Below, piece after piece: positions 4,484 to 24,021 of a DNA stretch of 64,000 nucleotides. Under the pieces are notes generated by a model. The model was not told the DNA's origin. It was given only the letters and a program-made list of their open reading frames with translations, and did not search any database. A program made the translations under genes and the position numbers. The DNA comes from Williamsia sp. 1135 (lineage in GTDB: Bacteria > Actinomycetota > Actinomycetes > Mycobacteriales > Mycobacteriaceae), in the NCBI RefSeq assembly GCF_002095395.1, contig NZ_MJEI01000101.1, positions 62,001 through 126,000 on the forward strand, written 5' to 3'. Numbering within the stretch: the stretch's first letter is position 1; every line of letters begins with the position of its first letter.

Positions 4484-4914
4484 TCAGGCCAGCGGAGCCT
4501 GCGTCCACTCGTTGACGAACTCCAGTCCACTGCGGACGAACAACTGACTGACCGGGCAGCGCCGCTCGGTTTCGGCGACGAACTGGGCGAACTGCTGCTC
4601 GGTCGCGTCCGATTCGACGGTGGCCCGCACGGTCACCTTGTCGAAGTTTGCGTTGCCGTCGGCGCCCTGCACCAAGACCGCGGTGTCGAGATCACCTTGG
4701 ACCTCGAATGAGAACTCGCCCAACGAGATTCAAGGTCCTTCGCGACCAGCGACGCAGTCACCTGGTTGCAGGAGGTCAGGGCACCGAGAGCGTAGAACAG
4801 CGGACTCGGGGCCTCGTCCTTGCCACCGAAAGCCGGGTAGGCGTCAGTTCTGAACTCGTGGCCCTTACCTGATGTCACCAGATGCTGGGCGACCCCGGTG
4901 CCGGTGGCGGACAC
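4484..4914 (-). pseudogene. OsmC-family peroxiredoxin-like gene split by a 1-bp frameshift
   Basis: OsmC/Ohr proteins are small thiol peroxidases that reduce organic hydroperoxides. From GTG 4914 the frame reads MSATGTGVAQHLVTSG, then TDAYPAFGGKDEAPSPLFYA, ALTSCNQVTASLVAKDLE, which is the first half with the first conserved Cys. The second half (GEFSFEVQGDLDTAVLVQG to CPVSQLF, with the second Cys) lies in another frame and ends at 4484. The switch falls near 4727-4733, where the coding strand has GACCTTGAATC. One extra G (GACCTTGGAATC) would restore D-L-G-I-S-L-G-E-F, exactly the family sequence. The gene is therefore complete except for one missing base. An in-frame TAG lies five codons before the GTG, closing the 5' end. 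No slippery heptamer is seen, so this is a mutation or a sequencing error. Confidence 0.85.
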
Positions 4915-5022
4915 GACAAAAGGGAACTACGGATTGTTTTGCTGCAGTGGTCATTACACGACACTGACAGACCGCCGACCGGCAGCGCCGCCTTAAACCC
5001 AACCAGATTCCACTGCTGGCGC

Positions 5023-19740: not shown

Positions 19741-19815
19741 CGTCCCAGGATAGGTGGTCCTGACATCTGAGTTCTCAGTGACCGACGCTCACGTGTCGTG
19801 GACGTCCGCAGTGAG

Positions 19816-19879
19816 TTCGCGCCACCTGCGTACGTTCGCGCCGGTTGCAACTGTCGCGTCCGCGTGCAGGTGGCGCGAA
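19816..19879. repeat. 64-nt palindromic element B, copy 1
   Basis: TTCGCGCCACCTGC (19816-19829) is perfectly complementary to GCAGGTGGCGCGAA (19866-19879), a 14 bp stem around a 36-nt interior that is itself partly palindromic (CGCGCCGGTTGCAAC). The copy at 47805-47868 has the same length and matches at 52 of 64 positions without gaps, including both arms. It lies between proA and the hydratase gene and ends 16 nt before the hydratase stop codon, that is, just downstream of that minus-strand gene. Confidence 0.85.
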
Positions 19880-19895
19880 TTTCCTGATCGACGGA

Positions 19896-20675
19896 CTACG
19901 CGTCGAACGACCCGTGCCGACCCGCACCGCCCGCGAAGCGCGACGCTCCGGCGACGGTATCGGCGCTCAACGACGTCATGCCACGCCGGAACTCATTGTC
20001 CATCGCGGCGGTTTCGTCGAGCCCCTCCTGTTCGAGAACCGATAACCGGTCCTGGCGCAGGCATGTCTGTGGGAAAGCGGCGATCTCGCGAGCCAGCTCC
20101 TTCGCCGACCTCAACACGTCACCCTGCGGCGCAACACGACTGACCAGACCCATCCGAAGCGCTTCGTCCGCGCGAACCTCCCGGCCTGTCAGGATCAAGT
20201 CCATCGCGTGCGACGTCCCGATCAGGCGCGGCAGTCGCACGGTGCCACCGTCGATCAACGGGACGCCCCACCTACGGCAGAAGACTCCGAGAACGGCATC
20301 TTCGTCCGCGACCCGCAGATCCGCCCAGAGCGCCAACTCGAGACCGCCCGCGACCGCGTGCCCGGCGATCGCCGCAATGACCGGTTTGGACAACCGCATT
20401 CGGGTCGGCCCCATGGGCCCGTCACCGTCGGGATCGACGTGGTTCGCACTCTCGCCTGAGGAGATCGCCTTCAGATCGGCTCCTGCGCAAAAGGTTCCGC
20501 CCTCGCCGTGAAGAACTGCGACGGCTGCTCCGTCGTCATTGTCGAAGTCACGGAACGCCTGGGCCAAAGCCTGCGCGGTCGGGCCATCGACAGCGTTGCG
20601 ACGCTGCGGCCGGTTGATGCTGATCGTGGTGATCGGGCCGTCGTGGCTCACCAACACGTCTGGACTGACCGACAT
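19896..20675 (-). CDS. Enoyl-CoA hydratase/isomerase family protein
   Basis: A 259-residue crotonase-fold protein. GGTFCAGADLKAISSG at about 60-75 gives the first oxyanion-hole residue, and GHAVAGGLELALWADLRVA at about 105-123 the second. CRRWGVPLIDGGTVRLPRLIG follows and carries an acidic residue region used in dehydration. The family acts on 2-enoyl-CoA thioesters in beta-oxidation or related degradation; the exact substrate cannot be read. It starts immediately after the TAG of the upstream gene (stop and ATG are adjacent), so the two are coupled. It lies at the junction between two regions conserved with mycobacteria. Confidence 0.85.
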   Translation of the reverse strand: MSVSPDVLVSHDGPITTISINRPQRRNAVDGPTAQALAQAFRDFDNDDGAAVAVLHGEGGTFCAGADLKAISSGESANHVDPDGDGPMGPTRMRLSKPVIAAIAGHAVAGGLELALWADLRVADEDAVLGVFCRRWGVPLIDGGTVRLPRLIGTSHAMDLILTGREVRADEALRMGLVSRVAPQGDVLRSAKELAREIAAFPQTCLRQDRLSVLEQEGLDETAAMDNEFRRGMTSLSADTVAGASRFAGGAGRHGSFDA

Positions 20676-21450: not shown

Positions 21451-22578
21451 ATGTTGTCGAGTACGTCCAACAGCAGGCGGAAGGTCAAGCTCATCTCACC
21501 CATCGACAGCCCGACCCCACAGCCGATCCTGTCGCCGCTGACTGAGGCTGCGATCTTCCTGGTGGCGACCATCGAACCCGGTGGCGAGTCTGACACGTGG
21601 GACTTCCTCTCCGGCGTCACCGGCCTGATCCGTTCAGTGGCCTCGCGCGCCCCCGACGCCCGGCCCACCTGCGTCGTCGGGATCGGATCGCGCGCGTGGG
21701 ACCGACTGTTCAGCGGGCCCCGCCCCACCGGACTCGCACCGTTCGTGCCCTTGGACGGCGCCGTGCACAGCGCACCGGCAACCCCGGGCGATCTGCTGTT
21801 CCACATCAGGGCCCGCACCATGGATGTCTGTTTCGAACTGGCCACGCAGATCGCCTCGCAACTGAGCGACGCCGCCCGCGTGGTCGACGAGGTCCACGGG
21901 TTCCGCTACTTCGACATGCGCGACATCATCGGCTTCGTCGACGGCACCGAGAATCCGGACGGCCCCGCAGCCGTCGCTGCGGTCACCGCCGGCGACGAGG
22001 ACCCCGACTTCGCCGGCGGCAGCTATGTCCTGGTGCAGAAGTACCTGCACAACATGCCGGCCTGGAATGCGCTCACGACCGAAGAACAGGAACAGTCCAT
22101 CGGCAGGTCGAAGTCGGACAACATCTAGATGGACGACGACACAAAACCCACGAACTCGCACACGGCGCTGACCGTCATCGAAGACGACGCGGGTGAGCAG
22201 GTGCAGATCATGCGCGACAACATGCCGTTCGGGCGGGTCGGGCAGGCCGAATACGGAACGTACTTCATCGGCTACTCCGCCGGCCCCGACGTCACCGACG
22301 AAATGCTGCGAAACATGTTCCTCGGCAAGCCCGAAGGCAACTACGACCGGCTCCTCGACTTCTCCACCGCAGTCACGGGCAGCCGCTATTTCGTGCCCAC
22401 CATCGATTTTCTCGACGACCCACCTGAGTTCCGCGGCGCGACCGCAGAAGCCCGCGGCGAAGCCGCCCATGTCACAGTCGAGCCCGACTCGGACATCACA
22501 CCACCCGCACCCACCATGGGTTCGTTGCGTATCGGCGCCCTACACCGGCGTCGCCAGCTGACGACGGAGGAAAAATGA
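21451..22578 (+). pseudogene. DyP-type heme peroxidase (encapsulin cargo) interrupted by an in-frame TAG
   Basis: Dye-decolorizing peroxidases use heme and H2O2. The frame reads from ATG 21451 to TAG 22126-22128 (225 residues), then continues in the same frame from ATG 22129 to 22578 (149 residues). The first part holds TPGDLLFHIRA, VDEVHGFRYFD and the distal motif GFVDGTENPDG (Asp164). The second holds the proximal His region NSHTALTV (His237 counting the stop), RDNMPFGRVG, EYGTYFIGYS and LLDFSTAVTGSRYF. A normal DyP needs both. Homologues have an acidic residue where the TAG stands. The C-terminal tail GSLRIGAL (22519-22542) resembles the encapsulin docking peptide of DyP cargos. The stop overlaps the encapsulin ATG (ATGA). 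Two separate polypeptides are possible through the adjacent ATG, but a working heme site is unlikely. The N-terminal start is uncertain. Confidence 0.85.
22519..22542 (+). other. Encapsulin cargo-loading peptide coding segment
   Basis: The segment encodes GSLRIGAL near the C-terminus of the DyP frame, after a Pro-rich linker (DSDITPPAPTM). It resembles the short Gly-Ser-Leu-x-Ile-Gly-[Ser/Ala]-Leu docking motif known from encapsulated DyP peroxidases. Its presence supports DyP as the native cargo. Confidence 0.7.
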
Positions 22579-23381
22579 ACAACCTGCACCGCGAACTAGC
22601 ACCCATCTCGACGGCGGCCTGGGAGGCCATCGAAGAAGAGGCGTCGCGATCGTTCAAGCGCAACAGTGCCGCCCGTCGCATCGTGGACGTGAACGGCCCT
22701 CTCGGACTGGAACTCGCCGCGGTGACCACCGGCAAGCGCAACCCCATCGACGCGCCGGTCGCGGGCATCCAGGCCAGTAGCCGCACCTCTCAATCCATCG
22801 TCGAGTTCAAGGTGCCGTTCATCGTGAGTCGAGACGCCGTCGACAACGTCGATCGCGGTGCGCAGGACTCCGACTGGGACCCGGTGATCGACGCCGCCCG
22901 GACACTGGCCCAGGCCGAGGACCGGGCCGTGTTCGAGGGCTACCAGGCCGCCGGCATCACCGGTATCCGCAGCGAATCACCGGGTGACCCCATCAAGCTC
23001 CCCGACGACGTGCGCGAGTACCCCGAAGCGATCAGCCAGGCGCTGAGCCGACTTCGGCTGTCGTCCGTGGCGGGCCCGTACTCCCTGGCGCTCAGCGCCG
23101 AGGTCTGGCTCAAGGTGAACGAGACGTCCAACCATGGGTATCCGATCATCCAGCACCTGCAGCGCGTGATCGACGGGGACATCATCTGGGCCCCTGCCAT
23201 CGACTCCGCCTTCCTCCTCAGCACCCGCGGCGGCGACTTCGATCTGACCATCGGACAGGATGTCTCGATCGGTTACGACTCCCACGACGCCTCGACGGTC
23301 AGCCTGTACCTGCAAGAGACGTTCACCTTCCTCGTCTACACCGGCGAGGCGGCCGTCTCGTTCGACACCACGACCGGCTGA
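22575..23381 (+). CDS. Encapsulin shell protein (family 1, linocin M18-like)
   Basis: A 268-residue HK97-fold capsid protein that self-assembles into a protein nanocompartment. It opens NNLHRELAPISTAAWEAIEEE, followed by ARRIVDVNGPLGLELAAVTTG, EFKVPFIVSRDAVDNVDRGA, and the C-terminal SLYLQETFTFLVYTGEAAV, all matching encapsulins of actinobacteria. GGAGG lies 5 nt before the ATG, and the start overlaps the DyP stop by 4 bp, the standard cargo-shell operon. The shell gene itself looks intact. In M. tuberculosis the homologous pair lies elsewhere in the chromosome, so its place here marks a rearrangement or insertion between conserved blocks. Confidence 0.95.
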   Translation: MNNLHRELAPISTAAWEAIEEEASRSFKRNSAARRIVDVNGPLGLELAAVTTGKRNPIDAPVAGIQASSRTSQSIVEFKVPFIVSRDAVDNVDRGAQDSDWDPVIDAARTLAQAEDRAVFEGYQAAGITGIRSESPGDPIKLPDDVREYPEAISQALSRLRLSSVAGPYSLALSAEVWLKVNETSNHGYPIIQHLQRVIDGDIIWAPAIDSAFLLSTRGGDFDLTIGQDVSIGYDSHDASTVSLYLQETFTFLVYTGEAAVSFDTTTG

Positions 23382-23409: not shown

Positions 23410-24021
23410 TCAGCATCTTTCGAGTGCGCGCCGGAGCACGGGCACCGATGGCCGGTCGAGGTAGAGGCCGTACGTCCGCAGCACCGTCACGAATTGGACC
23501 GCGTACTGGCAGTGGAAGCCTGAGTTGGCCGGCATCCAGCGCGCCGGTGCGGAGTCGCTCTTGTCCTGGTTGGCTTCACCGTCGACGGCCACCAGATTGG
23601 CAGGGTCATTCGCGAAACGTTGCCGAAGCGCCGCATCCCACGTACGTGCACCCATGGCCCAGGCGTACGCGAGCGGCACGATGTGGTCGATCTGCACCTT
23701 CGCACCTGAACCCTTGCCGCGCTTGAACACGATCCAGCGACCGCTGTAGGGACTGCGCAGTTCGCCCGAGGCGACCCCACGCGTGCAACTGTCCACCGCC
23801 GCGAGGATCTTGTCGTTCAAGTCGCGGTTCAGGATGTCGTTACGGGTGTCGCACCCGTTGTTCGCCCCGGCGGCGTCGGTGTTGTCGGTCCACGCCTGAC
23901 CGAACGCACTCCGCTCATAGTCGGCCGCGTCCGGGCGCTGCGCCAGGACCGGCACGAGCGCCAATTCCCCGAGCATTCGTCGTGCATCAGCAGAAGGCGC
24001 CCCTCCCTCGTGCGACACCAC
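23410..24021 (-). CDS. HNH endonuclease-family (DUF1524-like) protein, probably secreted; start unclear
   Basis: The C-terminal part is clearly of the HNH/DUF1524 family: CDTRNDILNRDL, GRWIVFKRG, the catalytic AKVQIDHIVPLAYAWAMGA (His motif) and NLVAVDGEANQDKSDSAPARW. The listed GTG 24021 gives 203 residues. Upstream in the same frame a typical signal-peptide core (WWLLLSVFAVTATLAAG, about 24025-24078) is encoded, but no ATG, GTG or TTG precedes it until well inside recG, only CTG codons. Either a rare CTG start is used, or a small mutation has removed the start. The gene follows recG on the same strand, as in mycobacteria. Nuclease activity is inferred. Confidence 0.75.
   Translation of the reverse strand: MVSHEGGAPSADARRMLGELALVPVLAQRPDAADYERSAFGQAWTDNTDAAGANNGCDTRNDILNRDLNDKILAAVDSCTRGVASGELRSPYSGRWIVFKRGKGSGAKVQIDHIVPLAYAWAMGARTWDAALRQRFANDPANLVAVDGEANQDKSDSAPARWMPANSGFHCQYAVQFVTVLRTYGLYLDRPSVPVLRRALERC

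Follow-up and report, generated by a model that had tools for sequence, protein, structure and literature searches.

In the genome of Williamsia sp. 1135, a gene for a DyP peroxidase lies directly upstream of an encapsulin shell gene, and its reading frame is crossed by a single in-frame TAG. Is the caged peroxidase lost, is it made in two pieces, or is the stop suppressed? The first-pass annotation of this DNA had left three options: that the shell is intact and its peroxidase lost, that a C-terminal fragment with the docking peptide is made by re-initiation, or that the stop is read through. We compared the 64-kb stretch of DNA analysed here (hereafter the window) with related genomes, and the likeliest answer is that an operon of a known kind carries a nonsense mutation of the ordinary sort, private to this genome, or perhaps an error; a new kind of cargo is less favoured.

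Results

The host assembly is a draft of 5.98 Mb in 107 contigs, with a completeness score of 100% and contamination of 0.07. At the operon, the closest named relative is Williamsia soli (L009; 94.5% of aligned bases over 4 kb), and the other named relatives from the genus are W. limnetica (L010; 86.7%) and W. faeni (L011; 78.7% over 3.1 kb). The DyP gene is coupled to the shell gene on the plus strand by an ATGA overlap at 22575-22578, in which the encapsulin ATG (22575) overlaps the DyP TGA (22576-22578). The shell gene (22575..23381) is intact, has its own ribosome site (GGAGG, 22566-22570) four bases 5' of its ATG, and encodes a family 1 encapsulin that matches model positions 1-261 of 261 of NF041155 with 329.3 bits (cut-off 100) and PF04454 with 313.4 bits. 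Downstream of the operon, a minus-strand gene (23410-24000) encodes a GmrSD_C/HNH-type domain. At the junction 19786-19897, the W. soli-like genome G005 is longer than the window by about 2.5 kb.

The cargo reading frame, uninterrupted in a regular DyP-encapsulin operon, is broken at the premature TAG (22126..22128). The part up to and including the stop (21493..22128, plus strand) comprises the N-terminal domain and the first part of the C-terminal domain with the distal Asp (PF04261, 114.5 bits; PF20628, 82 bits; PDB homologue 7bok_A, E 3.9e-85). An ATG at 22129 follows the stop directly, and from there the frame is open to the TGA at 22576-22578; this second part (22129..22578, plus strand) carries the proximal His, the distal Arg and Asn and the docking tail (PF20628, 91.8 bits; 7bok_A, E 1.1e-42). 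Since the part before the stop matches Dyp_perox_N and positions 2-71 of the Dyp_perox_C model and the part after it matches Dyp_perox_C positions 75-165, the two cover successive stretches of one Pfam domain, as expected for a single gene cut at one codon. The DNA thus bears out the first-pass description of a DyP frame complete save for one TAG, which falls between the distal Asp motif GFVDGTENPDG and the proximal His region (NSH). The docking-like peptide GSLRIGAL (22519..22542, plus strand), which aligned with the tail of 7bok_A, and the coupled encapsulin gene have both been kept, as had been claimed, but the tail is encoded past the TAG.

In an alignment of 18 relatives, Asp150, His223, Arg241 and Asn243 (W. 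soli numbering from AUC) were invariant, as was the residue at the place of the stop. In an alignment to DypB (3qnr), the invariant residues downstream correspond to its proximal His and to the Arg and Asn of the distal side. The stop leaves the distal Asp in the first piece and parts it from the His, Arg and Asn of the second, so neither half holds a whole haem site.

The start of the DyP gene may itself be unusual. An ATG is found at 21451, but it is doubtful that this is the true start: in the Williamsia genome G007 a stop directly follows the equivalent ATG, and no other ATG, GTG or TTG was seen by eye in the alignment before the conserved strand. W. faeni has no in-frame ATG, GTG or TTG at least eight codons upstream of the conserved N-terminal anchor, the sole such case among the 80 named loci described below, and has two TTG codons nearer the anchor; in W. 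limnetica the alignment shows a gap of one base between the ribosome site and the point where conserved coding begins. What all five operon-bearing Williamsia have is a block of 15 bases with GGAAGG, followed at a distance of seven or eight bases by ATC and the conserved protein. In the window (21472..21495, plus strand) the GGAAGG lies at 21479-21484 and is followed after an 8-nt spacer by ATC at 21493-21495, a possible ribosome site and AUC start. A putative AUC start at 21493 is the simplest reading common to the five, although an ATG in the same frame precedes the ATC by 42 nt in the window, in W. soli and in W. limnetica. The predicted RNA structure around the start was no better than that of shuffled sequences (z 0.30), and a literature search for AUC start codons did not find the phrase among the matches listed. 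Such a start would matter for the setting of cargo dose and for gene annotation.

Among the sequences examined, the TAG is private to this genome. We took the best 80 of 226 relatives as named homologues and examined all of them; in all 80 the two halves lie in one frame with no stop at the TAG site. The halves are exactly one codon apart in 74 of the 80, with the same amino acid in 74/74, and in the remaining six they are separated by 9 nt (five) or 15 nt (one), in frame and open. Stops elsewhere occur in four, upstream of the conserved N-terminus in three (L043, L073 and L080) and after a run of N in a metagenome-assembled genome (MAG; L041), so that 79/80 are open from the conserved N-terminus onward and only the MAG is disturbed. 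A family-level search matched 279 of 401 genomes, and among the matches listed only that of the window had a short open frame (149 aa), the others having at least 310 aa.

In a survey of nine Williamsia genomes, including that of the window, the DyP tail and the shell occurred together in five, and in the other four neither had a match; the operon thus appears to be gained and lost as a whole. None of the four other operon-bearing genomes carries the stop; the stretches of three of them are identical to those of the named W. soli, W. limnetica and W. faeni, which are also among the 80. Counting 15 nt to each side of the stop, the only base that sets W. soli apart from the window falls within the stop codon itself, whereas G007 differs at three positions and W. 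limnetica and W. faeni at four each. The first-pass annotation had named an intact gene in close relatives with identical flanks as a refutation of its reading; such a gene, with near-identical flanks, has been found, which argues for a mutation confined to this genome or for a mistake in its sequence. At the codon directly after the stop, all five Williamsia encode Met, and the 74 aligned homologues encode Met in 34 cases, Leu in 39 and Phe in one. The ATG does adjoin the stop as first described, but it was not newly placed there; it was inherited, and its position beside the stop is no sign of an evolved re-initiation site.

Relative to W. soli, the dN/dS of the DyP gene was 0.099 before the stop and 0.056 after it. 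Changes were polarised with G007 and W. limnetica, with the window and W. soli assumed to be sisters. Besides the stop, the window lineage has accumulated four nonsynonymous and 11 synonymous changes (P 1.1e-4 under neutrality), divided into three and eight before the stop and one and three after it. The W. soli lineage has five and 21 (three and 10 before, two and 11 after); 15 ambiguous differences between the two were left out (two nonsynonymous and six synonymous before the stop, one and six after). For the post-stop part of the window alone P was 0.051 against neutrality, on few changes. If the gene has evolved neutrally since the stop arose, and with a dN/dS of 0.09 before it, the neutral phase is unlikely to span more than about 30% of the branch (P 0.008 at 30%, 0.055 at 20%). 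After the stop, the window has a dS of 0.153 to G007 and of 0.214 to W. soli, and a different tree or recombination could therefore have distorted the lineage counts. The changes on the window lineage look purifying and indicate that the gene was under selection for most of the branch, which leaves two readings, a young stop or a gene that is still functional. The counts are small, and changes of the purifying type would be equally expected if the split gene worked; we prefer a young stop because nothing else that we found points to rescue.

The genome has two further DyP genes, G000:C26:54053-54547 (L001) and G000:C104:23854-24285 (L003). By eye, both products have a twin-arginine look at the N-terminus and lack the docking tail, which makes it probable that they are of the exported type; they may cushion the loss of the caged enzyme but would not replace it. 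The strict pattern GSLxIGxL occurs at five places in the genome and the backwards-pattern control at one. Only the DyP tail is near the end of an open reading frame (ORF), 19 codons from its stop, the other matches being 74 to 278 codons away, and with this strict pattern, whose reach does not extend to looser tails, no second docking-tailed cargo was found in the genome.

Discussion

We consider it probable that this is a normal family 1 encapsulin operon whose cargo gene was very recently hit by a nonsense mutation, so that the caged peroxidase is lost and the shell is empty or barely loaded. Ribosomes starting at the DyP ribosome site would halt at 22126 and release a product of about 211 residues which, having neither the proximal haem ligand nor the docking tail, is expected to fail both in proper haem binding and in entry to the shell. 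The shell gene, with its own GGAGG ribosome site, would stay unaffected, and the cell would make empty shells, or shells into which the C-terminal piece is loaded very rarely. Empty nanocompartments have been described for M. tuberculosis, where the shell was expressed alone in a transposon mutant of DyP (PMC8635971). Among the options offered at first, that of an intact shell with a lost peroxidase fits best. The sequences show the stop, its restriction to this genome among those examined, the intact shell gene and changes of the purifying type until recently; the loss of peroxidase activity and the empty shells would be consequences.

It is unlikely, although a real chance, that the TAG arose in base calling or assembly, or is confined to the culture that was sequenced, and that DyP is intact in the living species. 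The single base that separates the window from W. soli around the stop, the lack of other signs of decay in the DyP gene and the draft state of the assembly all speak for this, whereas the completeness and contamination scores of the genome speak against it, as does a comparison of ORFs. When W. soli-like ORFs were projected on the window, 12 of 52 were flagged, and over most of the 64 kb the DyP was the only flagged ORF that combined a dN/dS below 0.2 with a stop, so base calling looks good and a poor assembly was rejected as an explanation. By codon counts, eight of the other 11 flagged ORFs have stops in the window and three have none. Five of those eight have a dN/dS of at least 0.57 and the look of shadow ORFs. 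The remaining three (dN/dS 0.28 to 0.40) are less clear: one (0.28, two stops) lies opposite two intact window ORFs and again looks like a shadow ORF; in another (0.34), which has the look of a longer start, the stop precedes an intact window ORF of 561 aa; and one (0.40; window 4487-4972) has three stops in the open frame of G005, in a divergent stretch.

Much less probable is that translation terminates at the TAG and re-initiates at the adjacent ATG, yielding a 149-residue C-terminal fragment with the docking tail that is packed alone or together with the N-terminal part as a split cargo. The adjacency of the two codons, the intact downstream frame, tail and shell-gene overlap, and the low post-stop dN/dS are what can be said for it. 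Against these stand the ancestral origin of the ATG, the absence by eye of any Shine-Dalgarno-like purine run just before 22129, a haem site that is complete in neither half of a split cargo, and 80 named relatives of which none is split at this site. Nothing found here favours the re-initiation option of the first-pass annotation, or that of read-through. The fuller form of this reading, in which the stop is real and fixed in the species and the shell is loaded with the docking-tailed fragment, alone or as a two-chain peroxidase assembled inside, is still a little less probable. Programmed read-through or a split gene would be expected to leave the stop conserved, and it is conserved in 0/80 named loci and in 0/4 of the other operon-bearing Williamsia.

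Read-through of the TAG to give low-level full-length DyP, the other option first raised, is the least probable of these readings, for the complete frame and its apparently purifying changes are opposed by the lack of a CUA (CTA) suppressor anticodon among the 46 tRNA matches (tRNAs fitting the Rfam model), by a predicted RNA fold around the stop no better than shuffles (z -0.36), by a 15-nt context the same as in stop-free W. soli, by the absence of the stop from all named homologues, and by the use of TAG as the ordinary end of six of 30 intact window genes, hand-picked from 49 window ORFs (identity at least 94.9%). This last count also led us to reject a change of the genetic code.

Should the stop be confirmed, this strain would offer a case of natural cargo loss in a DyP encapsulin, usable as a wild control for the effects of empty shells; failing that, the case is one of routine nonsense mutation or error. 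In the literature we found no report combining encapsulin, DyP and pseudogene and none of a dye-decolorizing peroxidase with a premature stop codon; in the main text of PMC8346489, 'pseudogene' and 'no cargo' do not occur.

Set beside known systems, the operon has the gene order, shell family, DyP family and C-terminal docking tail of the classical (family 1) DyP encapsulin operon, of whose cargo PDB 7bok and 9bkx are solved relatives that we take to be mycobacterial DyPs; it departs from the classical operon in that the cargo gene of Williamsia sp. 1135 is cut short by a stop about 211 codons on from the AUC. The W. soli operon has the same flanks, a DyP 95.6% and 97.3% identical in the two parts and a shell 98.9% identical, but its DyP is stop-free. 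Like an ordinary recent nonsense pseudogene, the Williamsia sp. 1135 DyP gene is interrupted by a single in-frame stop of its own, and the relatives examined have the gene intact; unlike such a pseudogene, it shows no further decay yet and adjoins an intact partner gene.
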